Assembly (NCBI RefSeq): GCF_000469155.1
Contig: NZ_AWXE01000003.1
Span: forward strand, 1 to 64,000
Reading direction: 5' to 3'
From: Candidatus Micropelagos thuwalensis
Lineage (GTDB): Bacteria; Pseudomonadota; Alphaproteobacteria; RS24
Length of the DNA stretch: 64,000 nt
Below the pieces are notes generated by a model. The model searched no databases, was not told the origin of the DNA, and saw only the letters and a program-made list of their open reading frames with translations. The translations under genes were made by a program, and so were the position numbers. Positions 7,992 through 62,509 of the stretch are shown here, piece by piece; position 1 is the stretch's first letter, and each line of letters begins with the position of its first letter.

Positions 7992-8522
7992 CTAATTTTG
8001 TTTTGTTAATGTCATAAGTTTATTTTGTGGCTCAATATATTGTTGTATTTCAATAATTTCATCAGCATCATTAACAACAATTTTATTAATATATCTAACT
8101 TCACTTTCACAAGATTGATTAAAAATTAAGAGATTATCCTGCAAGTTTTCTTCCCATTCACCACAGTTCTTTTGAATAGAATATGCATCCTCATCATTAA
8201 GTTCTACAGAACCAACCTCGTCGCCTTGAATATCATATTCTCCTTCAAAGTCGCCAAAACCAACAATAGACACTACAGACCATCCATCAAAAAATAATGA
8301 GTTTCCAAATTTATCAGCAAATAGAGTTCCATTAGGTAATTCCATAGCTATTAATTTATAATTAAGATTGTCATAAGTCGCATCCCAATAATAGTTTTGC
8401 ATCTTAGGTTGAGGATTAGAGGAAGTAAAAGCTCCTATCTGACTAGAAGATACTGAACATGAAAAATTTATGAAAGAAATAGCAATTAAAAAAGCTAGGT
8501 ATAAGTTTGTATTTTTTTTCAT
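7992..8522 (-). CDS. small lipoprotein, possibly YjbF/GfcB-like
   Basis: 176 aa. The N-terminal signal ends in a lipobox ISFINFSC, so Cys22 should be lipidated. The mature part has the order seen in YjbF/GfcB capsule lipoproteins: an LPNGTLFADKFGNSLFFDGW strand pair, a central acidic region, and a C-terminal segment with NKIVVNDADEIIEIQQYIEP. It is shorter than E. coli YjbF (about 210 aa), so I call it family-like only. Its start overlaps the end of the YjbH-like gene by 4 bp (ATGA-type coupling) and the Wza gene follows, matching the gene content of gfc/yjb loci. Confidence 0.55.
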   Translation of the reverse strand: MKKNTNLYLAFLIAISFINFSCSVSSSQIGAFTSSNPQPKMQNYYWDATYDNLNYKLIAMELPNGTLFADKFGNSLFFDGWSVVSIVGFGDFEGEYDIQGDEVGSVELNDEDAYSIQKNCGEWEENLQDNLLIFNQSCESEVRYINKIVVNDADEIIEIQQYIEPQNKLMTLTKQN

Positions 8523-10591
8523 GGTTTCATTCTACTCTTGTTATTCGATAAAGTGTCATATCTAGCACCTCTTAAGCTATGCCACAACTCACCTGAAAAA
8601 CCCTCTAATCTTGCCCCACCATCACGTTGTATGGTTCTGAGGCGAGATTGATAATTGTTCCTTGTATCACGACCAAATAATGCATTAAGAGGAACTTTAA
8701 AGTAAAGACCTTTATCAAAACTACCCTCTCCAAAATCCTCAGCAGATACGTCTGTCTGTGTAGCCCAAACACCTACTTTCCATCCATTATCGAAAGTTCG
8801 TCGAAGTTCAAAGGTTGCCCCCTTATCCTCAGCAAGATATTGACCAACATGAAGCGCAGCATCAAAGTTATAAAGCGGTGTCGCCCAATAAGCACTCACA
8901 AATCCGGTAACAGCTTCATAATCCAGATGGTCAAACTGACGGTCATAATCTCTTTTCTTTGCCCAATGCAAACTAGCGCCCGTTGCAAACCTTGATTGAG
9001 GCTTAGAAAATAAAACTTCTCCCCCTATACCTGAAAACATTTCCTCAAAAATACCGGCCTCTAACCTGATAAAGGTGATCTTATTTATTGAATTTTGATA
9101 AGCTAAGAAAAAACTTTCAACGCCAGTTTCACCTTGTTGATAATATTTTTTCATTTCCGATCTTACCCTTGGTAATACTGAGTCACTTTCTCTAATTATT
9201 GTATCGAAGTTGTTTTCCAAATCGACTGCTATAGATGATCGAATAGTAAAATTAGCTGGAAGAGGTATTGTAGATTTTAGTTGGGCATATAACTGGTATC
9301 TTAGAGGTTCATCGGGATCCATTAATTGCAGACGGTTTTGCAATGCAATATCAACAGGTATTCTAAATTTAACAAAATTAGTCCTACGAAACGGCTTTTT
9401 AATCTGTCTAGGTAATAATATATCCAACTGATTTACAAAAGTTTCAACACTATCATTGTGAATATTCATAGGCCTTATTGTTTCCAATGTATGAAGACGG
9501 TACCCCTCCTCATTAACAGTAATTGCAATAGATTTAAAATTTTGCGGAAGGTGAAGGTCAGCCAATCTTAATGCAACGCCAATAGCATCGGGCCAACTTC
9601 TATAGTCTTTATTACTTACCTCAAGATTAATTTCTTCCCCCTCAGGCTCGTAGTCTGCAGACATTAAAATTAATCCTGCCTTGCTCATATCAAGCAATAA
9701 GCGATCATACCAACTCGAGGGATTATAGCCTTCGGGAAACTCGTTTTTTTTCATATCAAGAGTGGATTTATAGAATCTTTCAGGATATTTTGGCGAAGTT
9801 TGCTTTGTATTTAAACTCGCAGAAATCTTAAATCCAAATTCATCGTTGTGTTTGTAATTTGCAGCCAGATGAAGATCTTCAAACAACTCCCACTCTAAGC
9901 CAAAGCTGTATGGGGTATCTGGGGATTTGCTACCTCTTCCAACCTGGAAGTTATACTCGTCAGGATTGTATTCAGCTAAAATTTTCAATGGGTAATTAGG
10001 AACAGCATATGTTAGGCCTCCAAAAATTCCGGCATTTTTACCGCTGAAGAAGTTATCGAAACTAAACTCTCCACCTTGGCCAGTAACAGCACTTCGCTCT
10101 TCAAATCTATCAGAAATATTTTTTAACGGGTTATCAAAATCACCTTTTCCAGCAAGGCGGCCCCACCCAACACCTAGGGTAACATCTAGGGGACCATATT
10201 TTTTGGAACCAACAATATATTCTGAACCATAAACTCCAGTACCAGCCACATCCCTTATACCAATAGCAATTTGAGGTAAGTAATTACTTTCCTCCAACAG
10301 CCTTATTTTGGCTTCGTAACTTCTGTCATAGTAAAAAAAGTCTTCAAACCCCACATACCTAAAAGTTGTTTCAAACCAAGGTGTCGCTTGATAATTAAGA
10401 GAGTAAACGCTTACTGTGTCTTGTTTTGAGACCGTAGCACGTAGATAGCCATCTTTCATCATGCGAGCAGAAGGGATATCTATAATCCCGGTTGTTCCCA
10501 AATCCCCAGCTTTAGCACCAAAGGATATGAAAAAAGATGATAATAAGAAAAATGGCCCTAGTAGAAGGGCCATTTTAAAAATTTTATTCAT
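8519..10591 (-). CDS. YjbH/GfcD-like outer-membrane exopolysaccharide protein
   Basis: 690 aa, the size of YjbH/GfcD. After a signal peptide (cleavage near SFGAKA-GDLG) come the family's hallmarks: GTTGIIDIPSARMMKDGYLRATVS, YQATPWFETTFRY, and a long beta-strand-rich body ending in an outer-membrane-type segment (NNYQSRLRTIQRDGGARL). YjbH proteins are predicted outer-membrane barrels needed for secretion of group-4-like capsule or exopolysaccharide. The gene follows the YjbE-like gene by 17 bp and overlaps the lipoprotein gene. No clear YjbG/GfcC gene is seen nearby. Confidence 0.85.
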   Translation of the reverse strand: MNKIFKMALLLGPFFLLSSFFISFGAKAGDLGTTGIIDIPSARMMKDGYLRATVSKQDTVSVYSLNYQATPWFETTFRYVGFEDFFYYDRSYEAKIRLLEESNYLPQIAIGIRDVAGTGVYGSEYIVGSKKYGPLDVTLGVGWGRLAGKGDFDNPLKNISDRFEERSAVTGQGGEFSFDNFFSGKNAGIFGGLTYAVPNYPLKILAEYNPDEYNFQVGRGSKSPDTPYSFGLEWELFEDLHLAANYKHNDEFGFKISASLNTKQTSPKYPERFYKSTLDMKKNEFPEGYNPSSWYDRLLLDMSKAGLILMSADYEPEGEEINLEVSNKDYRSWPDAIGVALRLADLHLPQNFKSIAITVNEEGYRLHTLETIRPMNIHNDSVETFVNQLDILLPRQIKKPFRRTNFVKFRIPVDIALQNRLQLMDPDEPLRYQLYAQLKSTIPLPANFTIRSSIAVDLENNFDTIIRESDSVLPRVRSEMKKYYQQGETGVESFFLAYQNSINKITFIRLEAGIFEEMFSGIGGEVLFSKPQSRFATGASLHWAKKRDYDRQFDHLDYEAVTGFVSAYWATPLYNFDAALHVGQYLAEDKGATFELRRTFDNGWKVGVWATQTDVSAEDFGEGSFDKGLYFKVPLNALFGRDTRNNYQSRLRTIQRDGGARLEGFSGELWHSLRGARYDTLSNNKSRMKP

Positions 10592-10608: not shown

Positions 10609-10917
10609 TTAGGTACCGCCTGTACCACCTGTACCACCTGTACCGCCTGTACCGCCTGTACCGCCTGCGTCATCACCAGCAGCAGCAGGAGTGGGAGCTG
10701 GGTCGTCATCATCATCATCAGCAGCAACTGCTACACCAACAACGGCTGCGCCAATAGCAACAGCAGTAGCTACTGAGACACCAGCAATGGTTCCCGCACC
10801 AGCGGCAGCACCAGCTCCAGCACCAGCACCAGCACCACCAGCAGATGACTCAGATTGTGCATAAGCAGAACTGGTCATGATTATTGCGATTAAAGCAACA
10901 AGTAATTTTTTAAACAT
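10609..10917 (-). CDS. YjbE/GfcA-like small Ala/Gly-rich exported protein
   Basis: 102 aa from the ATG at 10917, chosen because AAGGTG lies 6 nt upstream; an in-frame GTG at 10926 lacks this. The signal peptide ends at SSAYA-QSES. The mature part is low complexity: an Ala-Gly block, a hydrophobic Ala/Val segment, an Asp run, and a C-terminal tail of six Gly-Gly-Thr units encoded by 9-bp tandem repeats at about 10611-10664. E. coli YjbE/GfcA is likewise a tiny, low-complexity exported protein encoded first in the operon. Function is unknown. Repeat-number changes would keep the reading frame. Confidence 0.65.
   Translation of the reverse strand: MFKKLLVALIAIIMTSSAYAQSESSAGGAGAGAGAGAAAGAGTIAGVSVATAVAIGAAVVGVAVAADDDDDDPAPTPAAAGDDAGGTGGTGGTGGTGGTGGT
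10611..10664 (-). repeat. 9-bp tandem repeat coding for Gly-Gly-Thr units
   Basis: Six copies of a 9-bp unit, with a third-base A/G variation in the middle codon, form the 3' end of the YjbE-like gene. The unit is a multiple of three, so slippage would change the tail length but not switch the gene off. Confidence 0.85.
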
Positions 10918-10951
10918 CTGAATCACCTTAGTAAAAAGTAACTTAAAAGCT

Positions 10952-11021: not shown

Positions 11022-11264
11022 TTAATTTTTTAAAAAATTTATAATTTTTTCGTTTAAATGATTAATCAGACCCTCAATGTCATCTTTCTTTAAATACCTT
11101 AAATATAACCCACGCTTCATTTTTGTATATCTAAAGTCCCAAAAACCAAAATCATAAACCTTCCAGCCATGATTAGTTTTATTAATAAAAAGTTTTAAAT
11201 CCAAGTCAGGTACAATTTTCAGATTCCTCTCAACAATTAAGATTGCGCTTTTATTATTTATCAA
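11022..11264 (-). CDS. 3' part of split MlaC-like gene
   Basis: The frame is open from a TAG at 11282 down to 11022; the only apparent start is a TTG at 11264. The product carries the C-terminal half of the MlaC/Ttg2D phospholipid-binding fold: NHGWKVYDFGFWDF, matching the family's GWKVYDVxVEGxS, followed by the DIEGLINHLNEKI helix. It has no signal peptide or ribosome binding site of its own. It is in the -1 frame relative to the preceding ORF, and the switch can be made at a run of seven A (11276-11270). Fused, the two parts make a protein of about 207 aa, the normal MlaC length. It is therefore either the end of a frameshifted product or a pseudogene fragment. Confidence 0.6.
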   Translation of the reverse strand: MINNKSAILIVERNLKIVPDLDLKLFINKTNHGWKVYDFGFWDFRYTKMKRGLYLRYLKKDDIEGLINHLNEKIINFLKN

Positions 11265-11650
11265 AGTAATTTTTTTAGCCTAAGGCTAGTGTTAAGATTA
11301 CTATTTAGCCATTCATATGCATATCTTCTGAATGTATTTTTAAGAGCTTCAGTAAGTTCTGAAATTAATTTTTTGTTAATTTTAAGGAAATTTTCTTCAC
11401 CCAAAATTGTTTTTAAGGTTAATTCCGGATTACTGTGAAACAAAAAAAGTTTAGCTGGGCCTGCCTCAAATTTATAAGGATATTTGCGATAAAATTTTCT
11501 TTTCTTAGATACCTCACTACTTGAAATAATATCTTCAGCGAAAGTATCTTCAATCTCTTGGATAAGAATTTGTCTATTTTCCAAGCTATACCCAGTTGAG
11601 CAAAAGAAAAAAACAACAAAAAAGGCAGAGAGTAAAAACTTTTTTACCAT
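11261..11650 (-). CDS. 5' part of split MlaC-like periplasmic phospholipid-binding protein gene
   Basis: 129 aa with a signal peptide (cleavage near GYS-LENR). A helical region follows with ISELTEALKNTFRRYAYEWLN, which corresponds to the MlaC helix F..L...TYA..L. MlaC proteins ferry phospholipids between outer and inner membrane. The reading frame ends at 11261, just after CTA AAA AAA TTA, and the missing C-terminal half lies in the -1 frame downstream. The start overlaps the end of the MipA-like gene by 7 bp, so both are co-transcribed. No mlaD, mlaE or mlaA is adjacent. The family call is inferred from pattern, not alignment. Confidence 0.6.
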   Translation of the reverse strand: MVKKFLLSAFFVVFFFCSTGYSLENRQILIQEIEDTFAEDIISSSEVSKKRKFYRKYPYKFEAGPAKLFLFHSNPELTLKTILGEENFLKINKKLISELTEALKNTFRRYAYEWLNSNLNTSLRLKKLL

Positions 11651-12465
11651 ATTTTGAATTTGCGAACGAAACCTATCCCCCCAAGGAGATAATCATCTTT
11701 TTTGATGAGGGGGCTTAATTCGTTCTTCCCTTTAGAAAGATCAATATATTTCACATAACTCAGGATAAGCCACTTATCTGTCTCATATTTAATTGTTGAT
11801 GATAATCTATGCCCCAATAACCCGCTTCTGGCTTTATAGAATGCACGGTCGGTTGTTACAAATTCCTGATTTACCGAGAAAAACTTTGATTGATACGCCT
11901 CACTCGCCCAGATGATACCAATATCAAAATCATAAAATAGGTTTCCATTTTTGGCCTCATAATGCACCCGAGGCTCTACAAGATAACCTGCATCTTGCAC
12001 AAATTTATCATCAAAAGCCTCATCTTCACCTAAAAGCTCAAATGAGGCGCGTACAGGGATATCTAAACTAATGTAATAATTTTGTTTCTGAATGAGCCTG
12101 AGGCTAACTTCAGGACCTATTTCGACAAAAAACCCCAAATCAGGCATACCATTACGCGCGGTATTATCATCACTGGATACCGGAAAAGAACCGGTAATAT
12201 CAAAATCAAGCTGAATGATATTGGTATTAATCAATTCCGCATGTACGCCTTTATCATTGACGCTCAGTCGGTCAGACCTAAAGTCGATGTAAGGCACTGG
12301 CAGGAAATAATCATCATTCTCATCTGATCCGGGATAATGAGGTAAAGAGGCGACGCCCAGCCCAGCACCTAAGATCAGCGAGTCCTCGCTGATGCTCTCA
12401 TTTTCCGTTGCATGACTGACGTGTGGAAAGCATGAAACTGCTACCAATAAGAAAAACCTTTTCAT
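11644..12465 (-). CDS. MipA/OmpV family outer-membrane protein
   Basis: 273 aa with a signal peptide (cleavage near SHA-TENES). The mature protein shows the MipA/OmpV order: LILGAGLGVASLPHYPGSDENDDYFLPVPYIDFRSDRLSV near the N-terminus, GPEVSLRL, and a final beta-strand ending in aromatic residues (GIGFVRKFKIW). Members are outer-membrane barrels; E. coli MipA scaffolds MltA with PBP1B. It overlaps the MlaC-like gene by 7 bp. The specific role here is unknown. Confidence 0.85.
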   Translation of the reverse strand: MKRFFLLVAVSCFPHVSHATENESISEDSLILGAGLGVASLPHYPGSDENDDYFLPVPYIDFRSDRLSVNDKGVHAELINTNIIQLDFDITGSFPVSSDDNTARNGMPDLGFFVEIGPEVSLRLIQKQNYYISLDIPVRASFELLGEDEAFDDKFVQDAGYLVEPRVHYEAKNGNLFYDFDIGIIWASEAYQSKFFSVNQEFVTTDRAFYKARSGLLGHRLSSTIKYETDKWLILSYVKYIDLSKGKNELSPLIKKDDYLLGGIGFVRKFKIW

Positions 12466-30882: not shown

Positions 30883-30957
30883 TTTTGTCTCGTGGTGGGC
30901 GATACTGGGATTGAACCAGTGACCCCTACAATGTCAATGTAGTGCTCTCCCGCTGAG
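30883..30957 (-). repeat. left attachment repeat (attL) holding a 65-nt 3' fragment of tRNA-Val
   Basis: These 75 bases are identical to 39376-39450. They contain the last 65 nt of tRNA-Val(GAC), with its 3' CCA end at 30893, plus 10 bp downstream of it. The fragment lacks the first 10 nt of the tRNA and is not functional. It is the original chromosomal 3' end left behind when the element integrated. Confidence 0.92.
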
Positions 30958-30993
30958 AAATAGAATTAAATCAGCTGGTTAACTGCCTCTCAT

Positions 30994-31020
30994 TTTGTGA
31001 CGCCACACTCAGGTCACAAA
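30994..31020. promoter_or_regulatory. inverted repeat TTTGTGAC/GTCACAAA, putative integrase arm site at left end
   Basis: An 8-bp perfect inverted repeat with an 11-bp spacer lies between attL and the integrase ribosome binding site. The same GTCACAA motif occurs three times in tandem near the right end (39242-39269). It could bind integrase (arm-type sites) or serve as an operator for the integrase gene. Confidence 0.5.
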
Positions 31021-31030
31021 GGAGAGAGAT

Positions 31031-31999
31031 ATGGCCTCATTTCGCTTCCGTAATGGAAAGTGGCAAGCCCAAGTCAGAAGGCAGGGCTATAGAGCCACAA
31101 CCAAAAGCTTTACCAATAAAACAGATGCCCAAAAATGGGCTAGAAGGCTAGAAACCGACATAGAAAATGGAAATACGCAATCAGGGGGGCAAGAAGCCCT
31201 AAACACCCCCCTTAAAAATTATCTCCAGCGGTATCTTGTCGAAATAGCCCCCCTCAAAGCTAGCTACAGTGTTGAGAAATACATTCTCAAAATTTGGCTA
31301 GAATCCTCACTGGCAAAACACCCAATCGGGTCCATAACACCCACTCAAATCATGTCTGAACTTGATGCTAAAAAGACCCTCTGGAAACCCACGACTATCC
31401 ATCGAAACTTTGGGGTTTTAAGGCATGTTTTTAACACCTCTCAAACGCTCTGGGAGGTGCCTCTCAGGCGCAATCCTGTGCAGTATATAAAGTTACCTAA
31501 AACACCCAAAACACCTATCAGAAGACTCTCTGAGGGCTTCTTAGAGGCCTTTGAGAGCAGTCGCAGAGATAGTATTTATTGGGTCGTAAACTTTGCCCTT
31601 GAAACAGCCATGAGACGCTCTGAAATCGCCAATCTTCGGTGGGAGGATATACAAAGAGAGAAGCGGTTAGCTCTGGTTGTTAAATCAAAAACAAACCGAC
31701 CAAGATTTGTGCCGCTAACGCCTAAAGCGCTTAGCATTCTGGATGAGGTTGGGGGGCAATCTGAATATGTCTTCGCCAAATCGTCGAATGCCATCAGACT
31801 TGCTTGGTCAAGACGCAAGGCATCAATCGGACATAATGAAGTGCGGTTTCATGATTTGAGACATGAGGCGATTTCTAGATTGTTTGAAAAAGGTCTGACT
31901 GTACCAGAGGTGGCAAGCATAAGCGGTCACTCAACCCCCCAAATGCTTTTTAGATATGCTCATAGTGATGTGAGGGCATTAGTCGATAAAATGCAATAA
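31031..31999 (+). CDS. tyrosine recombinase / phage-type integrase
   Basis: 322 aa. An N-terminal arm-binding region (about 1-60) with FRFRNGKWQAQVRRQG, a core-binding SAM-like domain (about 55-150), and a catalytic domain with R195 (AMRRSEIANLRW), the Lys strand near 218-220, H274-x-x-R277 (HDLRH), H300 (SGHS) and nucleophile Y309. All catalytic residues are present, so it should be active. A GGAGAGAG ribosome binding site precedes the ATG. It sits 73 bp from attL, pointing into the island, and presumably catalyses insertion and, with a directionality factor not recognised here, excision at tRNA-Val. It is unrelated in its C-terminus to the integrase fragments at 33013 and 38483. Confidence 0.93.
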   Translation: MASFRFRNGKWQAQVRRQGYRATTKSFTNKTDAQKWARRLETDIENGNTQSGGQEALNTPLKNYLQRYLVEIAPLKASYSVEKYILKIWLESSLAKHPIGSITPTQIMSELDAKKTLWKPTTIHRNFGVLRHVFNTSQTLWEVPLRRNPVQYIKLPKTPKTPIRRLSEGFLEAFESSRRDSIYWVVNFALETAMRRSEIANLRWEDIQREKRLALVVKSKTNRPRFVPLTPKALSILDEVGGQSEYVFAKSSNAIRLAWSRRKASIGHNEVRFHDLRHEAISRLFEKGLTVPEVASISGHSTPQMLFRYAHSDVRALVDKMQ

Positions 32000-32097
32000 G
32001 TCGTATCCAATTTAGATATAGAAATACATAACAGTTCGGTGGGGGTAATAGGCGCAGTTAGAGTTTAAATAACTACATAAATAGTTTCACTAAGTGC

Positions 32098-32131
32098 AAA
32101 AAACCCCTCCAGTTAATTGCGGCTGGGGGGG
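32098..32131 (-). terminator. terminator repeat copy 1
   Basis: A 34-bp sequence identical to 38541-38574. On the minus strand it forms a GC stem (CCCC-CCAG / CTGG-GGGG with a bulge) followed by six T, an intrinsic terminator. It overlaps the end of the Adhesin_E-like gene and encodes its last residues PPSRN. Confidence 0.8.
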
Positions 32132-32529
32132 TTATTTTTTTTAGCATTTTCAAGTGCGTTGCAAATGTAGCCTAAAGCAAGAGCACTATTATCATCTGGT
32201 GGCGGATACTCCCATTTTTCCTCATCGGGAGCGACGGATTCACTATCAATTACTTTTCCAACACCCATAGGTTGCAAATACGTAACAATTTGTAATGTTT
32301 TTTGCCTTCTTAAATCGCAATCAGACTGGCGGTACATTTTTAAAGAATGAAAACGCTCCGTGGGCTTTTTCCAGTTAATTAATTCCCAGTGAAATACATA
32401 TCCATCTTTTATGCGAATACTATTTAAATCCATATAAACTTCAGCTATGGGTCCTGAAGCAAATAATTCCCACTCTGCCCAAGCAGGCGTCGAGAAAAGC
32501 AGTGCGATGGTTAGGAATAGTGGTTTCAT
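32113..32529 (-). CDS. exported Adhesin_E-like protein with island signal-peptide cassette
   Basis: 138 aa. The signal peptide MKPLFLTIALLFSTPAWA (1-18) is the island's shared leader, with TTGAG upstream as weak SD. The mature part fits the surface-adhesin E-like family: WELFASGPIAEVYMDLNSIRI, VFHWELINW, an SLKMYRQSDCDLRR segment, a central MGVGKVIDS, WEYPPPDD and a final Cys (ALGYICN). Two cysteines probably form a disulfide in the periplasm or on the surface. The C-terminal PPSRN is encoded by the terminator repeat also found at 38541. It is 10 bp downstream of the lipoprotein gene. Confidence 0.75.
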   Translation of the reverse strand: MKPLFLTIALLFSTPAWAEWELFASGPIAEVYMDLNSIRIKDGYVFHWELINWKKPTERFHSLKMYRQSDCDLRRQKTLQIVTYLQPMGVGKVIDSESVAPDEEKWEYPPPDDNSALALGYICNALENAKKNNPPSRN

Positions 32530-32539
32530 TTTTAATCAC

Positions 32540-32947
32540 TCAAGGACAATTATAATCATATGTATAGCCGTCAGTTCGTTCTCCTTTATAAAAACTATCT
32601 TTAATATATTCTCTTGTAGTTTTTATGACGTAGCAGTTTTCTTGTTGTTTTATTTCACTAAAATATCTTTCCAATACTTGTCGATAAGTAACGGATGAAG
32701 GGCTTGTATCAATATGGTCAAATGTAAATACTTCTAAAAGTGCTTTAGGTGCATCTAACATAGTTCCCCACCGCATTATATATATCTTAGATTTTTTATC
32801 GTCAAAAACAGCAAAATCCGTACCTTTATGCTTAATGTTATAAGAGGGCCACTCCGCAATGTGTCCTTTATAACCACTATGATATCCGCCGGCATTACAA
32901 CCATGCAAAAACAAACCTAGGGTTAGAATAATCATGCTTTTTTTCAT
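32540..32947 (-). CDS. small lipoprotein, hypothetical
   Basis: 135 aa. The signal ends in a lipobox FLHGC, so Cys17 should be lipidated. The mature part has mixed beta character, with ending VIKTTREYIKDSF...YDYNC. The leader differs from the MKPLLLT cassette used by its neighbours. No family recognised. It is followed 10 bp later by the Adhesin_E-like gene, so the two form an export operon with the terminator at 32098. Confidence 0.65.
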   Translation of the reverse strand: MKKSMIILTLGLFLHGCNAGGYHSGYKGHIAEWPSYNIKHKGTDFAVFDDKKSKIYIMRWGTMLDAPKALLEVFTFDHIDTSPSSVTYRQVLERYFSEIKQQENCYVIKTTREYIKDSFYKGERTDGYTYDYNCP

Positions 32948-33012
32948 AATTTAAGTCCTCATGCTGTGGAGCAGAAATAAGTTCTGTCACTAGATAATAA
33001 TCGAGCCTCCCC

Positions 33013-33183
33013 TCACCCACGAGCCCCGATAACTGCGGAAGAACCTATATTGCTCATCAAATATCTTTGCCAATTATTAAGCATTTCTGCTCTCTCTGCA
33101 AAGTAATCTGTTCTGTTATATGCGGCTTTGATACACATGATATTTTTCGGGTCGCCAGCTTTGGCTGGCGATCCGAAAATCAT
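33013..33183 (-). pseudogene. integrase C-terminal fragment carrying a palindromic repeat (remnant A)
   Basis: A 56-codon open frame from ATG 33183 to TGA 33013. Its middle, IKAAYNRTDYFAER-AEMLNNWQRYL, is the tail typical of many phage integrases (AYxRxDYxxxRRxLMxxWxDYL). The first part, FGSPAKAGDPK, is encoded by the 36-bp palindrome also found at 35253. The rest of the integrase is absent and the live integrase at 31031 does not end this way. A 35-bp part is repeated with one mismatch at 38503-38537. It is probably debris of an older element. Confidence 0.6.
33144..33179. repeat. 36-bp palindromic repeat, copy 1
   Basis: A 16-bp stem (one G-T mismatch) with a 4-nt loop: TTTTCGGGTCGCCAGC, TTTG, then the complement. 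A copy with one difference lies at 35253-35288. It stands 57 bp after the end of the prim-pol gene and could terminate it, or it is a REP-like mobile palindrome. In the minus frame it encodes FGSPAKAGDPK. Confidence 0.75.
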
Positions 33184-33235
33184 TCCTCTTCAGAAATGCA
33201 ATCAAAATACTAACTGATTTAGAATTAGAATTTCA

Positions 33236-34282
33236 TTACTGGTGCTTGGGGGGATGAAAGCTATATAGATATGCATTACGTGGACGATTGGGCACACACT
33301 TCTCGCCAACTCTGAAAATAATTTTATTATCTAATAAAACCTTCAAAGCCTCTCTCAATCTGTTTTTACCCCATCCCAAATAATTGGCAGTGGCTTCTTG
33401 TGCAATAGTATACACCTCTAAATCTCGTGTGTATTTAAGTGTTGCCAATAAGTAAAAGGCATCAGGTGTACACGAGTTGTGTTCTTTTCTGGCAAATTTA
33501 GCGAACTGTTCCCCTGGAGGAATTATTTGATTTGATATTCTGTTTTTCCATACGCTATTGACCACACTGATAACTTCACTAGCCCTCAAAGGAGGTATAT
33601 TTGTTTCGTTCATTTGAAAAGCTAAGTGCTCTAATTCATTATAAGAACCAACCTCCAGCGCTCTTTCTCTCAAATAATTAAACAGCGAATTATTTCTAGC
33701 ACCTTCAGCTGCTAAATATGTAACTGGCTCATCAGCCTCTTTAAATTGATACACATCCCTGAGGGCGGAATTTAAATTCAAAAGTCTATCTTCGGTAGTG
33801 ATTGGCAAATCTTCCAAAGTTGCATCTAAAATGGACTCATTAGGCCAAGAATAGGGTTTTTTAGTCTCAGGATGAATGCCAGCTACAACGACCTGTTGCC
33901 CAACACCTAAAATCTCTACACCCCCCGTTTGCAATTTTCTTATGGGGGTCTTTGTACGATAGAAGTATGCCTTTCTTGGTGGCCTTCCTATCCGAATAAA
34001 ATCAGAGGGACCCAAACACTGGAGCATTACCTGATTGATTATTTCAATCTTTTCTGGTTCTTCCTCATCAATATCAATTACTACGAGCTCACCAGTGCGT
34101 AATCCAATATTTTTAGTTTTATGTTTTTTTATATATTCAGCTCGCTCAAACTCATTATCTGGCATTGAAAATGTTGTCCAACCACTCATTCCCTTTTTGC
34201 CTTTCAGTGGCAATGGGTCATAACCATTTTGGTATAGTTGCTCAGCCCATCGACCATATATTTCTGCTTTTGACTCCGTCAT
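33236..34282 (-). CDS. bifunctional primase/polymerase (prim-pol) domain protein
   Basis: 348 aa. The N-terminal prim-pol domain (about 8-165) has YGRWAEQLYQNGYDPLPLKGKKGMSGW, the acidic metal motif D70-x-D72 (VVIDIDEE), and VVVAGIHPETKKPYSW, matching the family's third motif. The C-terminal part contains a winged-helix-like segment (EATANYLGWGKNRLREALKVLLDNKIIFRVG). There is no helicase domain. Such proteins prime replication of plasmids, phages and satellites. It is divergent from the exonuclease gene (122-bp gap) and probably replicates the excised island. Confidence 0.82.
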   Translation of the reverse strand: MTESKAEIYGRWAEQLYQNGYDPLPLKGKKGMSGWTTFSMPDNEFERAEYIKKHKTKNIGLRTGELVVIDIDEEEPEKIEIINQVMLQCLGPSDFIRIGRPPRKAYFYRTKTPIRKLQTGGVEILGVGQQVVVAGIHPETKKPYSWPNESILDATLEDLPITTEDRLLNLNSALRDVYQFKEADEPVTYLAAEGARNNSLFNYLRERALEVGSYNELEHLAFQMNETNIPPLRASEVISVVNSVWKNRISNQIIPPGEQFAKFARKEHNSCTPDAFYLLATLKYTRDLEVYTIAQEATANYLGWGKNRLREALKVLLDNKIIFRVGEKCVPNRPRNAYLYSFHPPKHQ

Positions 34283-34404
34283 AATTCATCCATAAAAATT
34301 TAACTTGTATAAATTTTAAGAAATCCAAAGTGAATCGCTAGAGGGTATTTTTCGAAAATAAAATCTAGTTCTGTGAATATTGTTAACTTGGTGGAAAACT
34401 AGGA

Positions 34405-35181
34405 ATGAAAATTGTTGTTATTGATTTTGAAACAGCCAATGACCACCCATCAAGTGCGTGCGCTATAGGTATTACCGAAATACACGATGGTAAAATCATA
34501 TCCTCGGAAGCTCATATCATTGAGCCCCCAACGGATATTTTTCGAAGAAGCTTTACTAAAATACACGGATTAAAATGGAAGGATTGTAAAGGCAAACCCA
34601 CCTTTAAGGATTTTTACTCTGAGAACATTAGTAGATTTGAAAATGCAGATTTTCTTGCTGCCCATAATGCTGGATTTGACAGAACGGTATTATTTTCAAC
34701 ACTTTTACATTTTGGAATCTGCCCTCCCGAAACTCCGTTCATAAACACTCTTCCGATTGCTAGGAAAGTGTTAGGTATTAAGTCGGCTCCTCTCGATAAA
34801 GTTGCTAAACTTCTAAGCGTTGAATTAAATCACCATGAAGCTGCTTCTGACTCAAAAGCATGCGCTGAAATAATAGTTTATGCGCTATCAAATGGTTTCG
34901 ATATTAGTTCGGCAGTAATGAAACCAACAATTATTGAAAAACCAGACAAACCTCCAACATGGGCAGACCATCCCGAAGAAATGAAGGAGAAATACCTATA
35001 TCCATGGCGGGAGTTTTTCATTGAGAACGGCTACCTGGATAAGTCTTACTCAGACTTTCAATTTAGAATTAGAGGTTTTGAATTAAATGAAGCAAAAGGA
35101 AAAGAAGTAGACTTTACAGTTGAAGAAATTTTAGCTGACCAATGGGTTCAAGAGTTAATTAGGAAATTAAAAGAACAGTAA
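34405..35181 (+). CDS. DnaQ-like 3'-5' exonuclease (DEDDh)
   Basis: 258 aa. Exo I motif VVIDFETAN (D7, E9), exo II HNAGFDRTVL, exo III HHEAASDSKACAE with the His and last Asp of DEDDh enzymes. The exonuclease domain covers about 1-175; the C-terminal 80 residues (DHPEEMKEKYLYPWREFFIENGYL) are unassigned. It could proofread or process DNA or RNA ends during island replication, or act as nuclease in host or phage interference. It is divergent from the prim-pol gene and convergent with the small-protein operon. Confidence 0.85.
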   Translation: MKIVVIDFETANDHPSSACAIGITEIHDGKIISSEAHIIEPPTDIFRRSFTKIHGLKWKDCKGKPTFKDFYSENISRFENADFLAAHNAGFDRTVLFSTLLHFGICPPETPFINTLPIARKVLGIKSAPLDKVAKLLSVELNHHEAASDSKACAEIIVYALSNGFDISSAVMKPTIIEKPDKPPTWADHPEEMKEKYLYPWREFFIENGYLDKSYSDFQFRIRGFELNEAKGKEVDFTVEEILADQWVQELIRKLKEQ

Positions 35182-35252
35182 TTTATCATTTCCTGGAACT
35201 CACAAAGCAAAGTAACTGGTTCTCAATTTATAGCCTAGGGTTAAGTTATACG

Positions 35253-35288
35253 TTTTCGGGTCGCCAGCTTTTGCTGGCGATCCGAAAA
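35253..35288. repeat. 36-bp palindromic repeat, copy 2, with decayed integrase-tail sequence
   Basis: Identical to 33144-33179 except one loop base. It lies between the convergent exonuclease and small-protein operon and may act as a bidirectional terminator. On the minus strand the bases after it (to about 35190) resemble remnant A (AGAAC-AG-TTACTTTGC block) but the frame is broken. Confidence 0.7.
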
Positions 35289-35344
35289 CCACTTCCCTCC
35301 AGAAATAATCTCAGACAAAAATAATTCACTAAGAGGGTTAGGAT

Positions 35345-35668
35345 TTAAATTTTATTTGTGTCTCTAAATTCTTTTTCTTTTTTATCTGCCTCTATTGTCC
35401 AATCAAGTTCTGGATTGGATGCATAAATCCCTTCTTTATTTGCCCATAGTTGTTTCTCATTATCTCTAATTTCTTCAACCTCTAAGTCGAGGATACGAAT
35501 TGAAATTACCCCAATGATATTTGAAACTAATAGTGTGGCGGGTAGTAAAGAAATGCCAATGATTGCCAAGATTGCAAGACCAAAAATCCCGTAATTTGAA
35601 GCACTGACCATGAGAGTTTTAATGCCTAAAAATAATGCGTCACCAGTAAAAAATTTCCAGATGTATTT
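35345..35668 (-). CDS. small membrane protein, hypothetical
   Basis: 107 aa from the ATG at 35668, which overlaps the stop of the preceding gene (ATGA), so it is translationally coupled. Two hydrophobic stretches (about 10-25 and 30-60, FGLAILAIIGISLLPATLLVSNIIGVISI) are followed by a charged C-terminal tail. It lacks the island leader. It is the last gene of the nine-gene minus-strand set. No family recognised. Confidence 0.6.
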   Translation of the reverse strand, partial: KYIWKFFTGDALFLGIKTLMVSASNYGIFGLAILAIIGISLLPATLLVSNIIGVISIRILDLEVEEIRDNEKQLWANKEGIYASNPELDWTIEADKKEKEFRDTNKI

Positions 35669-35952
35669 CATTTCACAGGAGAACAACTGAAAGATACATC
35701 AGGCCGCTTTGGGTCATTTTCAATCACAATCTCTCTGTCATATCTGCAATAATTAGCTATTCGCGACATCCAGTAAATTCTTTTGTCCACTTGTACTAAA
35801 ATAATATCACAATCTTGGTTTCTGATGTTTTTTTCCAGAAGCTTTCTATCCTCTGTCAAATTTGGAAAAGATATGTAGTATTGACAAAAAGAATTAAATG
35901 CTTCCGCTGGGGTCGATAAAAGCAATGAAATTGTGAGGAGTAGTGGTTTCAT
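35668..35952 (-). CDS. small exported four-cysteine protein (CRYDR family) with island leader
   Basis: 94 aa. The leader is MKPLLLTISLLLSTPAEA, then a mature domain of about 76 residues with cysteines in CQYY, QDCDI, NYCRYDREI and SFSC. The same cysteine order and the CRYDR-x-I-x motif occur in the protein at 38556-38864, so the two are paralogues with low overall identity. Probably a disulfide-bonded periplasmic protein. It follows the ADP-ribosylglycohydrolase gene by 12 bp. Function unknown. Confidence 0.7.
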   Translation of the reverse strand: MKPLLLTISLLLSTPAEAFNSFCQYYISFPNLTEDRKLLEKNIRNQDCDIILVQVDKRIYWMSRIANYCRYDREIVIENDPKRPDVSFSCSPVK

Positions 35953-35964
35953 TCTAATCTCAAT

Positions 35965-36840
35965 TTAATGAAGCATATTAAAAGGGTATTGGTTCAATTT
36001 TAACAAATCAAGCCAGTCTTTATTAATACTATCATACCCATAAAGCGCTCCAGCAAATTGACCTGTTACAGCGCCAACTGTATCCGCGTCATCTCCTAAA
36101 TTTACCGCCAACAATACCGCCTCATCAAAAGACCCTGTTTGGTTCACACACCATAAAGCTGCCTCAAGCGTGTGTATTACATACCCTGACGAGCTGATTT
36201 TATCTCTGGATTTATTCCTCCACCCTCCTGAGGGAATATCTTGCAAAAACTGCATATCATTTGGGGTTGCATCGATTGCGCTGTCCCAAGTTTTACCGTT
36301 AATTAAGTCTACAATTATGTTACAAGCAAAGGCGCAAGCCTCAGCTGCTACATTTGATGAATGCGTGGTAAAGCTTTGCTCTATAGCAATTTTAAGAGCC
36401 TTGGGCTTGTCATTCGAAAACAGAACTGGGACAGGCGCAAGCCTCATCAAACTTCCATTTCCATCGGATTTATTGTTTTGTGAAGCTGCTTCTAGAACGC
36501 CGCTTCGCCTGAACTCATTCAATGTCCAAAAAGTATTTTGGCCTATACCCACCGACTTTCCAGTGCTGGAGTATTTTCCATTTTCCATCCACTCACAAAA
36601 CTCCTGGAGTAAATGTTTTCTGTCTAAACCTTCATTAACCTTCAGACTGTGAAATAAAGCCAATGACATTGCTGTGTCATCTGTCCAAGCGCCTGCAGGT
36701 AAGTCAAAATAGCCACCAGCTTCCATCTCAGAAATTGGTTCAAAGCTATCACGCTCATTGAATTCAACTGGCGCACCAAGAGCATCGCCAACTGCCAGCC
36801 CAAGCATACATCCTATCTGTGAATTATTGAGTAATTTCAT
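35965..36840 (-). CDS. ADP-ribosylglycohydrolase (DraG) family protein
   Basis: 291 aa. Full DraG signature: GCMLGLAVGDALGAPVEF at the N-terminus, GAWTDDTAMSLALFHS with the metal-binding TDD near residue 52, and NLGDDADTVGAVTGQFAGALYG near 250-270 with the second metal site. It should remove ADP-ribose from a modified protein or nucleic acid in the cytoplasm. Its ATG overlaps the stop of a 12-codon leader (TAATG) that is a truncated copy of the island signal cassette, so its translation is probably coupled to it. No ADP-ribosyltransferase is recognised in the island. Confidence 0.92.
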   Translation of the reverse strand: MKLLNNSQIGCMLGLAVGDALGAPVEFNERDSFEPISEMEAGGYFDLPAGAWTDDTAMSLALFHSLKVNEGLDRKHLLQEFCEWMENGKYSSTGKSVGIGQNTFWTLNEFRRSGVLEAASQNNKSDGNGSLMRLAPVPVLFSNDKPKALKIAIEQSFTTHSSNVAAEACAFACNIIVDLINGKTWDSAIDATPNDMQFLQDIPSGGWRNKSRDKISSSGYVIHTLEAALWCVNQTGSFDEAVLLAVNLGDDADTVGAVTGQFAGALYGYDSINKDWLDLLKLNQYPFNMLH

Positions 36841-36878
36841 TAGAAAAGCAGTCCGATGGTGAGGAGTAGTGTTTTCAC
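36840..36878 (-). CDS. orphan 12-codon leader, truncated island signal cassette
   Basis: GTG start at 36878, product MKTLLLTIGLLF, stop TAA overlapping the ATG of the ADP-ribosylglycohydrolase gene. The GTG itself overlaps the stop codon of the upstream gene (GTGA). The DNA matches the signal cassettes of neighbouring genes up to the CTGCTTTTCT core and then breaks. It is probably a scar where a mature domain was replaced by the cytoplasmic draG-like gene, now acting only as a coupling leader. Confidence 0.6.
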   Translation of the reverse strand: MKTLLLTIGLLF

Positions 36879-37198
36879 TCTTGCTTATCTTCTAACGGCT
36901 TTTCCTCAGACTTCTTCTCACCAAAGTACTTATTTACAATCTCTAAAAGTAATAATAAAGCCTCAGGCCTAGATTTATTTTTTACGAGTTTCTTAAACCG
37001 CACTAAGTTTCGCTTTTTTTGAAGTTCTTTTCGATATTCAGTATCAAAAACTTCTCGTACTAAAGAATATAACAAGTAAACGGCAATAAATATGAACGGA
37101 CTGTAAATAAAAACAAAAAGCCAAAACCAGTTTTCATCTAACCCAGCCCAAGCTGGCGTCGAGAAAAGCAGTGCAATGGTTAGGAGTAGTGGTTTCAT
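36875..37198 (-). CDS. small exported or membrane protein with island leader
   Basis: 107 aa from ATG 37198; a TTG-started extension of three codons is less likely. The leader is MKPLLLTIALLFSTPAWA, followed by a short linker and a second hydrophobic helix (WFWLFVFIYSPFIFIAVYLLYSLV, about 24-47), then a strongly basic, later acidic cytoplasm-like tail. So it is probably anchored by the second helix after signal cleavage. It starts 9 bp after the stop of the lipoprotein gene. Not recognised. Confidence 0.65.
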   Translation of the reverse strand: MKPLLLTIALLFSTPAWAGLDENWFWLFVFIYSPFIFIAVYLLYSLVREVFDTEYRKELQKKRNLVRFKKLVKNKSRPEALLLLLEIVNKYFGEKKSEEKPLEDKQE

Positions 37199-37207
37199 TT
37201 TTATCAA

Positions 37208-37597
37208 TTATTCAACAATTGAAAAACATGGGATTATTCCAAAGAGTTTTTGTATTCTCTTTTCTGCATATTCACTGTCTTTAATAGAGTGATATTCATT
37301 AAAGGGGGGGCCAATAGACAAATGCGAACCATCAAGACAAAGGTTTTCATTTACCCCATAATTTAATTGCCCATCAAGCTTAGCCACAAATGTTTTGTTA
37401 CTTTTTGTTTTAATTAATTGGAACTTCTGTTCAGGAGTTATAGCTAAATACTTTCGGAAAAAAACCGTTTCTTTTATGGATACATATGTTGGCTTTTCTG
37501 GTTTTAAAACTTCTTCATTAAAACTCAGTCCATATGTGCAACTAGCTGTAATTCCAGAAGTTATGAGCAGTGCGATAATGAGGAGTAGTTGTTTCAT
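37208..37597 (-). CDS. small lipoprotein with island-type leader
   Basis: 129 aa. The leader MKQLLLIIALLITSGITASC is a variant of the island cassette ending in a lipobox (ITASC, Cys20). The mature part has mixed strand and turn character, with two further cysteines (NLCLDG, IIPCFSIVE). A good SD (AAGGGGTG) lies upstream, with the Sel1 gene ending 1 bp before its start. No family recognised. Confidence 0.65.
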   Translation of the reverse strand: MKQLLLIIALLITSGITASCTYGLSFNEEVLKPEKPTYVSIKETVFFRKYLAITPEQKFQLIKTKSNKTFVAKLDGQLNYGVNENLCLDGSHLSIGPPFNEYHSIKDSEYAEKRIQKLFGIIPCFSIVE

Positions 37598-37598
37598 C

Positions 37599-38294
37599 TC
37601 AACACCCCTTATAGTTGTTCTCTATACACTCAAGAGCCATTAGCATTGCTTTGTTTATCTCTTCGGTTGTCATCATACTTAAGACAATTTCTCTTTTTAT
37701 AACGGCAGAGTCATCTCCATTTAATACTGCGAGGTGAAACCACATTAAAGCGCGCATATTATCTTTTATGACACCCGCTCCTTTGGCAAACGAAATCCCA
37801 AGGTTGCCTTGGGATGGGCCATCACCTTGCTCTGCCCCTTTTCGATACCACTTCACTGAAGTTTTGAAATCCTGAGTTACACCGAGTCCATCATAATACA
37901 TATTACCTAGGTAGTATTGGGCTGAGACATTCCCTTGGTCTGCCGAAAGACGATACCACTTCGCAGCAGTTTTATAATCCTGAGTGACTCCGAGACCGTG
38001 ATAAAACATACTACCAAGGCTATATTGGGCTGCACCATCACCTTGTTTAGCTGAAAGTGAATACCACTTAAACGCTTTTTTATAATCCTGTGTTACACCT
38101 TTTCCATGTGCATACATTGTGCCTAAATTATATTGCGCAACCGCATTACCTTTTTCTGCTAAAGGTTCCCATTGAAACAATGCTTCTGCATAATCGCCCC
38201 GTTCAGATGCCTCATAACCTTTATCAAAGTCCTGCGAATAACTAACAGACAAACTACCAACAAGTAATGCGATGGTGAGGAGTAGTGGTTTCAT
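37599..38294 (-). CDS. exported Sel1-repeat (TPR-like) protein with island leader
   Basis: 231 aa. The signal peptide is MKPLLLTIALLVGSLSVSYS. Four to five Sel1 repeats of 36 residues cover about 25-190, with the A-x-x-x-L-G-x-M-Y-x-x-G-x-G-V-x-x-D pattern (AQYNLGTMYAHGKGVTQD and repeats). Sel1 proteins bind other proteins, often at the periplasm or surface. It begins 1 bp after the 64-aa gene and is followed 1 bp later by the lipoprotein gene, in one operon. It has a short Cys-containing C-terminus (ALECIENNYKGC). Confidence 0.85.
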   Translation of the reverse strand: MKPLLLTIALLVGSLSVSYSQDFDKGYEASERGDYAEALFQWEPLAEKGNAVAQYNLGTMYAHGKGVTQDYKKAFKWYSLSAKQGDGAAQYSLGSMFYHGLGVTQDYKTAAKWYRLSADQGNVSAQYYLGNMYYDGLGVTQDFKTSVKWYRKGAEQGDGPSQGNLGISFAKGAGVIKDNMRALMWFHLAVLNGDDSAVIKREIVLSMMTTEEINKAMLMALECIENNYKGC

Positions 38295-38295
38295 T

Positions 38296-38490
38296 TTATT
38301 TATCCTTTAGCTTTTTTTCGCGTTTGATAGCAGCGACTTCGCCTCTCAAAGACCGTGCGCTCCCCTCATAGGGGTCGCTATGGTCGCGCTCCAGCGCATC
38401 CACCTCAAAACCGCCAAACAAACCTTTCGGGCGACCCGACTTTAGCTTTGGAATAGCTGAAGTTTTGGATTTTTTGGAATCGCTACTCAT
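38296..38490 (-). CDS. small basic protein, hypothetical; start overlaps an integrase tail fragment
   Basis: 64 aa, highly charged (Lys/Arg/Asp), no leader or membrane segment. It has an SGRPKGLFGGFEVDALERD motif in the middle. A clear SD (AAGGGGGAAAG) precedes the ATG. The start is nested in an integrase C-terminal fragment ending NWQRYLKGESNE, so in an ancestor it probably directly followed an integrase gene. It could be a small DNA-binding or directionality-type protein, but nothing proves it. Confidence 0.6.
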   Translation of the reverse strand: MSSDSKKSKTSAIPKLKSGRPKGLFGGFEVDALERDHSDPYEGSARSLRGEVAAIKREKKLKDK

Positions 38491-38538
38491 TACTTTCCCC
38501 CTTCAAATATCTTTGCCAATTATTGAGCATTTCTGCTA
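38483..38538 (-). pseudogene. integrase C-terminal fragment (remnant B)
   Basis: Minus-strand codons read AEMLNNWQRYLKGESNE and stop at 38483. Thirty-four of 35 bases at 38503-38537 match remnant A (33057-33091). The fragment begins abruptly next to the terminator repeat at 38541-38574, so an integrase gene has been cut at this point. Confidence 0.55.
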
Positions 38539-38540
38539 AT

Positions 38541-38574
38541 AAAAAACCCCTCCAGTTAATTGCGGCTGGGGGGG
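38541..38574 (-). terminator. terminator repeat copy 2
   Basis: Identical 34 bp to 32098-32131. It ends the four-cysteine protein gene (38556-38864) and encodes its final PPSRN. The minus-strand stem is followed by six T. Genes further downstream in the operon must have another promoter or read-through. Confidence 0.8.
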
Positions 38575-38864
38575 AATTTGTCTATCTCGCAAGTAAAAAA
38601 ATGAGCATCGTCTGTTTCCGAAACTATAATTTGGCGGTCATATCGGCAAACTTCGTCCATGTAATATTGAATATGCTCGTCTTTCCCTGGGACTTTCTCG
38701 AGTCTAAAACTGAAAATATTGCAGTCTGCACGTTTAACTTCCCCTCTTATTTTTCTCCATTTTCCCCGCTCATCACTAGGGTCATATTTATAACGACACG
38801 CATAACCGAATGCCTCAGCAGGCGTCAAGAAAAGCAGTACGATGGTTAGGAAAAGTGGTTTCAT
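38556..38864 (-). CDS. small exported four-cysteine protein (CRYDR family) with island leader
   Basis: 102 aa. The leader is MKPLFLTIVLLFLTPAEA, with TTGAG before the ATG. The mature domain has cysteines in CRYKY, RADCNI, EVCRYDRQI and FTCE, matching the protein at 35668-35952 in spacing. The C-terminus PPSRN comes from the terminator repeat and is shared with the unrelated Adhesin_E-like protein. So both ends of this gene are shared with other genes while its core matches a third. It is divergent from the DUF5681 gene. Function unknown. Confidence 0.7.
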   Translation of the reverse strand: MKPLFLTIVLLFLTPAEAFGYACRYKYDPSDERGKWRKIRGEVKRADCNIFSFRLEKVPGKDEHIQYYMDEVCRYDRQIIVSETDDAHFFTCEIDKFPPSRN

Positions 38865-38900
38865 TTTAATGTCTCAATAGACTGGTTAATAGCTTACCCT

Positions 38901-38930
38901 TTGAAATGCTAATTTCATCCATTGTATAAT
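38901..38930 (+). promoter_or_regulatory. sigma-70-type promoter of the DUF5681 gene
   Basis: TTGAAA at 38901-38906 and a perfect TATAAT at 38925-38930 with an 18-bp spacer, 27 bp before the start codon of the gene. Confidence 0.65.
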
Positions 38931-38957
38931 GCAACCTCAAGTCAGGAGGCGTTCACG

Positions 38958-39275
38958 ATGCGAGATAAGACAGGCAGATTTATCAAAGGCTATTCAGGCA
39001 ACCCTGGGGGCAGACCTAAGGACGAACATAACGTCATTGAGTTAGCGAGGAGCTATACGACTGAGGCTCTTGAGACGCTGGTGAAGCTCATGCGTGATGG
39101 TAAAGATGAGCGTGTAAGAGGCACTGCTGCTCAAGCATTGCTGGATAGAGGTTGGGGTAAGCCTAAGGTTGAGGTTCTCACAGACAAGTCTGACTACCTG
39201 ACTGCGCTTCTGGAAGTGCAGAGCTCGATAATAGAGCATCGGTCACAATCTGGTCACAACTCGTCACAAATTTAA
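38958..39275 (+). CDS. DUF5681-domain protein (phage/terminase-associated family)
   Basis: 105 aa from ATG 38958, chosen because CAGGAGGC lies 9 nt upstream. The N-terminal motif GRFIKGYSGNPGGRPK (about 5-20) defines DUF5681. A helical part follows (RGTAAQALLDRGWGKPKVEV), as in small terminase-like proteins. DUF5681 proteins are common in phages and prophages of alphaproteobacteria, often next to terminase genes. Its last codons (SQSGHNSSQI) overlap three GTCACAA repeats near attR. It may help packaging or regulate the island; this is inference. Confidence 0.75.
   Translation: MRDKTGRFIKGYSGNPGGRPKDEHNVIELARSYTTEALETLVKLMRDGKDERVRGTAAQALLDRGWGKPKVEVLTDKSDYLTALLEVQSSIIEHRSQSGHNSSQI
39242..39269. 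promoter_or_regulatory. three direct GTCACAA repeats, putative integrase arm sites at right end
   Basis: GTCACAA at 39242-39248, 39253-39259 and 39263-39269, spaced 11 and 10 bp, about one helical turn. They lie 107-134 bp inside attR. The same motif forms an inverted pair inside attL (30994-31020). The arrangement resembles arm-type sites of lambda-like integrases. Confidence 0.55.
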
Positions 39276-39375
39276 GTGTATTTTTGACAATCAAGGTGCA
39301 CAGCTTGCCAGCCACCCCTGATATGTGTAATTCTATTTTCTGTCATGATTTGAGTGGTTTAAAAGGGAATTAACC

Positions 39376-39450
39376 TTTTGTCTCGTGGTGGGCGATACTG
39401 GGATTGAACCAGTGACCCCTACAATGTCAATGTAGTGCTCTCCCGCTGAG
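39376..39450 (-). repeat. right attachment repeat (attR)
   Basis: Second copy of the 75-bp perfect direct repeat. It makes up all but the first 10 nt of the intact tRNA-Val gene plus 10 bp beyond its 3' end. After integration the element supplied this 3' end, so the tRNA stays functional. Confidence 0.92.
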
Positions 39451-39460
39451 CTAATCGCCC
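39386..39460 (-). tRNA. tRNA-Val (anticodon GAC)
   Basis: 75 nt with encoded CCA. The acceptor stem is GGGCGAT/ATCGCCC, D arm GCTC...GAGC, anticodon arm CTACA-TTGACAT-TGTAG with GAC anticodon, a 5-nt variable region and T arm ACTGG-TTCAATC-CCAGT. All arms pair fully. It reads GUC valine codons. It is the integration site of the island. Confidence 0.95.
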
Positions 39461-60320: not shown

Positions 60321-62165
60321 TTAGAAGTCAAAACGAATCCCAACCTTAAACGACCTGTCTGATGTACCAAAGCCGAAAGCAGTCTGGTAATCCTCGTCCA
60401 AAAGATTGGTAATCTTACCCTGAATTTTTGAATAGTCATTAATTTGATAATGAACGCCAAAATTCAAGAGATTGTAATCCTCTAAATCCACCTGAGAAGA
60501 CGGAAATGCGTTGAAATTGGTATCAATAACGTCACGCACCGACAATACAGACAGGTTACTGGTGAGTTTGTCGTTCAAATTGGCTTTGATATTCATATTA
60601 AGTGTGTGACGTGGTCGTCTAATCTCACGGCTACCATTTGACAGTCTAGGGTCCTGATAGGTGTAATTCGCATCAATATTGACCCGATCTCCCAGCGCCC
60701 AATCGGCGGTCAGTTCAACCCCCTCATAAGTGCTTTCGCCAGGTTGTTGAATATATTTACCATTTGAATAACCAATGAGGTTATCAAGCGTAATTTTGAA
60801 AATACTCGCCGATAAAAATACGCCGTCCCCATTATCATAGATAATGCCGATATCCTCACTCACGCTTTCTTCGGGTTCAAGATTAACATTCCCGCAAAGA
60901 CCGTCCTGACAAAAAATACTTTTACCAAACTGCTCATATAAACTCGGGGAGCGGAAACCTGTTCCGTAATTTGCACGTAACTTTAATTCCGGTGTCAGAT
61001 TTTTCAAAATAGTCACACGACCTGTTTCGTGCCGACCAAACTCTTCCTGATCATCAATACGGGCAGCAAAAGTCAAAAATAAATCCGACATTGGCCTGGT
61101 CTGCCACAAAATATGAGCCGACTGATTATCAGCTTCATAAGTTTCCGAACCGTCATTATATTCCTCGGTTTCCATTTCTAAACCGAAGAGAAATTGATTT
61201 GCTTCACTCAGCGTAAATTGCCCTAGATAGGTAAACATTTCACGTGTCCCCTCGGTTGAAAGTGTCGAGAAGGCTGAAATGGATTTGTTTTCATCTTTAG
61301 ATGTTAATAAGTTTATTTCATGACGCAGATTATCAACCTGATAGGCAAGGCCAAGTTTGGCGTTTAGGCTCTCAAAAGCAGTTGTATCGTTAGAGTCGAC
61401 AGGGACATAATTATCATGGTTCACATCACTATCGACATAACGGACTGATAAATTTAAGTCGAGATTGTCAGAGAGTGCTAACCCGAACCGCCCAACAGCT
61501 GACATATATTCGTAGCCGTCATCTTCCGTATTGCCATCATCTTCATCAGCCGAGGAAAAGCCATCACTTTCTGAAAAATTGAGTGCAACGCCATAATCTA
61601 AACTGGAAAGACTTCCTGCCGCAAAACCGGACGCACTATAACTGTCATAGCTGCCGGCTTCCAAAGACAAGCTCTGCCTCGTTGGGCCACCATAAGCCGT
61701 AAACATGCTCACGACACCACCAACGGACTCACTGCCGTACAGCACACCATGTGATCCGCGTAATACTTCAATGCGCTCAAGACCCAATGTCGTGATATGC
61801 GCCCATTCAGCCTGTTGACTGACTGGGCTGTTCAGTTGAATTCCGTCAAGTTGTACGACCGTATATTTTCCTGTCAGACCACGCAGAAAGACATTCGAAC
61901 TTGTACCTGGACCACCAGATGAATAAGTGCTCACCCCGCTGACACGTTGTAAGACATTTTGTAAATGACGTTCCTGATAGTTCAGGAAGTCTTCCTCATC
62001 CAACACTGAGATTGATGATCCGATTTGATCGATTTTGGTCGGTATACCAGTTGCGGAAACGACAACTTCATCAACCGACTCCGCATACGCACCGGGTGAT
62101 AAAAGCAAAACAAAAAAGCAGGGTAAAAAACAAATTAAAAACAAATAACAACGTGAGTGTATCAT
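60321..62165 (-). CDS. btuB: TonB-dependent vitamin B12 receptor
   Basis: 614 aa from ATG 62165, which has GGAG 6 nt upstream; ATG 62177 is also in frame. Signal peptide ends near GAYA-ESVDEV. TonB-box region DEVVVSATG, a plug domain (LQNVLQRVSGV, LRGLTGKYTVVQLDGIQLN, IEVLRGSHGVLYGSESVGGVV) and a 22-strand barrel follow. The end is LDEDYQTAFGFGTSDRSFKVGIRFDF with a terminal Phe. It brings cobalamin across the outer membrane. It is preceded by the B12 riboswitch, which supports the substrate. Confidence 0.94.
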   Translation of the reverse strand: MIHSRCYLFLICFLPCFFVLLLSPGAYAESVDEVVVSATGIPTKIDQIGSSISVLDEEDFLNYQERHLQNVLQRVSGVSTYSSGGPGTSSNVFLRGLTGKYTVVQLDGIQLNSPVSQQAEWAHITTLGLERIEVLRGSHGVLYGSESVGGVVSMFTAYGGPTRQSLSLEAGSYDSYSASGFAAGSLSSLDYGVALNFSESDGFSSADEDDGNTEDDGYEYMSAVGRFGLALSDNLDLNLSVRYVDSDVNHDNYVPVDSNDTTAFESLNAKLGLAYQVDNLRHEINLLTSKDENKSISAFSTLSTEGTREMFTYLGQFTLSEANQFLFGLEMETEEYNDGSETYEADNQSAHILWQTRPMSDLFLTFAARIDDQEEFGRHETGRVTILKNLTPELKLRANYGTGFRSPSLYEQFGKSIFCQDGLCGNVNLEPEESVSEDIGIIYDNGDGVFLSASIFKITLDNLIGYSNGKYIQQPGESTYEGVELTADWALGDRVNIDANYTYQDPRLSNGSREIRRPRHTLNMNIKANLNDKLTSNLSVLSVRDVIDTNFNAFPSSQVDLEDYNLLNFGVHYQINDYSKIQGKITNLLDEDYQTAFGFGTSDRSFKVGIRFDF

Positions 62166-62276
62166 ATTAATCTCCATACAGCATTAGCCGGAAAATTCCG
62201 GTGTTATTATTCGTCGTCTGTAACGGAAATACCGTCCTCCACAGTGCATCCCGCCTGTAGAAAGTAACGACCATAT

Positions 62277-62432: not shown

Positions 62433-62509
62433 ATATGCACCTTTCTAGTAACCTGATTGAAAATTTCAGTCAAGTTTATGGAAATTGTCCAAGCATTTAG
62501 AGTGGTTCA

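Follow-up and report, generated by a model that had tools for sequence, protein, structure and literature searches.

Two overlapping open reading frames (ORFs) on the reverse strand of Candidatus Micropelagos thuwalensis DNA make up a single protein-coding gene that is interrupted by a frame break at a poly-A run, and the break is very probably (at a probability of roughly 0.86) the product of a one-base change in the length of that run, either through an assembly miscall or through a recent mutation. Positions are given in the window, the 64,000-nucleotide stretch that was analyzed. ORF1 (11261–11650, reverse strand) encodes the N-terminal half of the protein, 129 aa, and the C-terminal half (82 residues; 11022–11276, reverse strand) lies in the −1 frame, which is open from the run of seven A residues (A7) to a TAA stop. 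The A7 itself (11270–11276, reverse strand) sits at the frame change and carries an in-frame A_AAA_AAA heptamer in the correct phase: in the first frame the coding strand reads CTT AGG CTA AAA AAA TTA CTT TGA, with the TGA stop of ORF1 three codons past the heptamer. These coordinates and frames, the position of the A7, and the in-frame heptamer are all as described in the first-pass annotation. Its statement that ORF1 has a signal peptide is better worded more weakly, as a signal-peptide-like start judged by eye; and while its proposal of a fusion through a −1 step stands, its figure of about 207 aa does not, as read-through gives 127 + 82 = 209 aa, against 212 aa for the intact ortholog.

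That ortholog belongs to IMCC14465, a PS1-clade alphaproteobacterium by taxonomy, where it occupies one unbroken 212-aa frame. The same 212-aa protein aligns to residues 2–129 in one frame (E = 4.6e-39) and to residues 127–208 in the other (E = 5.6e-29), and the two matches are adjacent and on the same strand. Because one protein matches both ORFs, the two are one gene, beyond chance, and the earlier view that a gene is divided at the A7 by a −1 step is supported. The second half contains no stops in its own frame, compared with 12 and 12 in the two other sense frames, and it stayed open in only 6 of 20000 dinucleotide-chain simulations. The codons of IMCC14465 at the corresponding site contain no A7. 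The first-pass annotation had suggested a comparison with relatives, and had named an uninterrupted frame without the A7 as evidence against its own reading; this is what IMCC14465 has. The close-ortholog comparison covers this one genome, the only one found by the contig scan.

The order of the flanking genes is identical in IMCC14465. Just upstream, a MipA-family gene (11644–12465, reverse strand) overlaps the start of ORF1 by 7 nt; the next gene downstream (10609–10926, reverse strand) encodes a small Gly/Thr/Asp-rich protein that is probably secreted, and it is followed by a gene for a YjbH-family exopolysaccharide protein (8519–10591, reverse strand). The tail of the small protein is a Gly-Gly-Thr repeat here and poly-Thr in the IMCC14465 counterpart, which indicates that the tail is a fast-changing repeat. 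With the split gene as the query, direct matches were obtained in 3 of the 28 family genomes, one of them just 28% identical, and with a distant member as the query, matches were obtained in 4 of the 28; a class-wide sample yielded the gene in 2 of 385 genomes. YjbH was found in 2 of the 12 genomes examined for it. The sparseness of these matches (3/28 and 2/385), taken with that of YjbH, indicates that the locus is accessory. A search of plasmids for a relative found none.

Both halves of the gene have been conserved to the same extent. Identity to the ortholog is ~60% in the N-terminal half and 59% in the C-terminal half, and the differences at codon positions 1, 2, and 3 are 0.31, 0.23, and 0.60 versus 0.29, 0.20, and 0.54 across the halves, the third position being the most variable. 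Long decay of the gene is not indicated, as the halves are alike in identity and codon pattern and there is no extra stop; the equal conservation and the open C-terminal frame imply that the protein was under constraint until recently, or that the sequence is misread, or that the second half is still translated. A recent loss leaves no trace at 60% identity, and conservation therefore reads the same under recent loss, misreading, and translation. The gene as a whole is 60% identical to its ortholog, compared with a median of 88.9%, and only 1.7% of 542 ORFs are at or below 60%. Its GC3 is nearly the lowest (rank 2 of 542 ORFs) and has changed by −0.138 relative to the ortholog, compared with a median of −0.048 (a drop of this size is seen in 9 of 525 pairs). 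The low identity and the drop in GC3 are compatible with weak constraint, without proving it.

The first-pass annotation called the gene MlaC-like, after the periplasmic phospholipid carrier MlaC. The likeness lies in sub-threshold matches to the MlaC family (PF05494) in two members, namely the C-terminal half (16.4 bits) and a distant member from another genome (G041; 13.1 bits), and in a similar length and a GWKVYD stretch. It is offset by the curated cut-off of 26 bits, below which both scores fall, and by the true MlaC, which sits elsewhere in the genome. The intact IMCC14465 ortholog gave no hit to the MlaC family profile, and a profile comparison with 25 canonical MlaC proteins of the family genomes gave no match. 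The best PDB profile match, an entry named "Exported protein", was not significant (E = 0.15), and the AlphaFold model had a mean pLDDT of 45, too low for a structure search. Canonical MlaC membership was thus examined by Pfam, NCBIfam, profile comparison, PDB sequences, and a structure model, and the gene fell below the cut-off; "MlaC-like" may be kept as a faint, sub-threshold lead and does not denote membership of the family. Canonical MlaC scores above the cut-off in all 28 family genomes, including this one (contig C1, position 561979), and so loss of the split gene would leave an Mla carrier in place.

We surveyed 850 kb of this genome against 1.23 Mb of IMCC14465 for other genes that match in two frames, using a match threshold of at least 45% identity. 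In the forward direction, 586 of 1155 IMCC14465 ORFs were matched and nine two-frame candidates emerged, four of which were judged genuine by eye: the target gene at its A7, a ribonuclease D (the NCBIfam name) at a C7, a FAD-dependent oxidoreductase that breaks beside short A runs, and, at an A5, a 360-aa ORF without a known family. All four breaks step to −1 and lie at or near short homopolymers, and the agreement in direction (4/4) is weak (p = 0.125). The other three genes lie outside the window, with the ribonuclease D and the oxidoreductase at ~483150 and ~694744 of contig C1, respectively, and the 360-aa ORF at ~94065 of contig C3. The five candidates dropped by eye were a 293-aa HAD-type upstream extension, a 166-aa ORF without a family assignment that steps in the opposite direction, doubtful ORFs of 158 aa and 85 aa, and an ORF over a cobalamin riboswitch; the 166-aa ORF is ambiguous, and counting it would give five genes, four of which step to −1. 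The reverse comparison matched 577 of 796 ORFs and gave eight rows, of which two were judged by eye to be genuine breaks in IMCC14465 (an aminotransferase and, less certainly, a 263-aa ORF assigned to no family). Of the six rows set aside, one was an upstream extension of 349 aa, three were short ORFs of doubtful standing, and two were riboswitch rows. Because the forward and reverse rates are low and similar, the assembly is not proven to be error-prone. Breaks of this kind are not special to the target gene.

Programmed −1 ribosomal frameshifting at A_AAA_AAA, which the first-pass annotation listed as a possible origin of the split, would produce both the full-length and the truncated protein, at a regulated ratio. 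The phase of the heptamer and the −1 direction are right for it, with an X_XXY_YYZ sequence in the zero frame within the overlap and a stop three codons on; the C-terminal half is still constrained, and PMC4066793 gives A_AAA_AAA as a programmed −1 site of insertion sequences. The heptamer and the direction are shared with frameshifting in those elements (A_AAA_AAA / A_AAA_AAG), whereas here there is no stimulator, no conservation, and no mobile element. Screening the 30 nt that precede the heptamer with the motif list of PMC4066793 found no SD-like motif. A downstream stimulatory structure had also been proposed as something to look for, and the downstream RNA folds worse than shuffled sequence in all three stretches analyzed (z = +1.24, +0.49, and +0.91). 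A short palindrome, TAGCC-TTA-GGCTA (11276–11288, reverse strand), abuts the A7 directly upstream and forms a weak hairpin that does not outperform shuffled sequence (z = −0.12). SD-like or RNA-structure stimulators are not always present at bacterial programmed −1 sites. In-frame A_AAA_AAA windows number 85 in the 577 conserved ORFs of the genome, a count that takes in the target gene, whereas the two remaining frames have 75 and 63; an in-frame heptamer is thus common in intact genes, and its presence at the break is weak evidence for recoding. A heptamer precisely at the break is nevertheless also what recoding would require, and it is the one positive support for recoding. With the site not conserved in the one close ortholog, which is intact, with similar −1 steps in unrelated genes, and with a truncated form that has no functional reason, programmed frameshifting appears highly improbable. 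We likewise consider it very unlikely that the A7 is a lineage-specific recoding site through which an accessory MlaC-like lipid carrier is made only by a −1 slip, at a low or tunable dosage; if true, this would be recoding of a kind seldom found outside mobile elements.

Slippage need not be programmed, and a true mutation might be softened if RNA polymerase or the ribosome slipped on the A7 at times. Runs of A permit slips in principle, and disrupted genes with slippage-prone A9 runs are described as rescued in PMC1088944. According to the same source, selection against slippage shows itself in a substantial proportion of bacteria only once a run reaches about nine A/T, whereas the run here has seven A; and the conserved ORFs of this genome hold 154 runs of seven A, 33 of eight, and 1 of nine, so that such runs are evidently tolerated. 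Rescue of this kind is unlikely. Polymerase slippage as an origin of the split, also raised in the first-pass annotation, finds no support in an ortholog without the A7, an ordinary heptamer, and similar −1 steps elsewhere in the assembly. The two ORFs could instead yield separate polypeptides, the second begun by termination-reinitiation at the overlapping TTGA, in which TTG and TGA share two bases (11264–11261). Both halves align to one continuous ortholog, however, the second part would be half a fold and would lack a signal peptide, and no SD-like sequence was seen by eye before the TTG, which makes reinitiation extremely improbable.

A change in the length of the homopolymer is favored over these alternatives because it explains all observations at the least cost. 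Homopolymers readily gain and lose bases, both in replication and in sequencing, and a replication slip or a misread at the poly-A run would change its length by one base and break the frame. We infer this cause from what the sequence shows: one gene spread over two frames, an ortholog that is intact and lacks the run, halves that are equally constrained, and similar breaks in other genes of the assembly. Recent mutation and homopolymer error were both among the options first put forward, and together they form the explanation retained here: an erroneous run length in the assembly is the form toward which we lean, at about even odds, and a recent true indel in the strain is somewhat less likely. 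If the break is true, a 129-aa truncated protein would be made and the gene would be effectively lost, a loss that may be tolerable in an accessory, fast-evolving locus. Singleton frameshifted genes have been described in prokaryotic genomes (Antonov et al., 2013; PMC3711429), and the present gene resembles them with no essential difference: a protein match confirms the frame break, and the break is not conserved in relatives. As an ordinary frame break at a homopolymer, this one is of importance mainly for annotation, where the pair of ORFs is best recorded as a single frameshifted gene.

Elsewhere in the window, a probable integrated island (30888–39460) lies at a tRNA-Val(GAC) gene. The full tRNA gene is at 39386–39460, and at least 59 of its bases recur as an exact direct repeat at ~30888–30957, beside an ORF (31031–31999) that was named by eye as a phage-type integrase. 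A cobalamin riboswitch (62262–62448, reverse strand; Rfam, 104 bits) lies upstream of a TonB-receptor-like ORF (60321–62177), which, named by eye, is probably BtuB.
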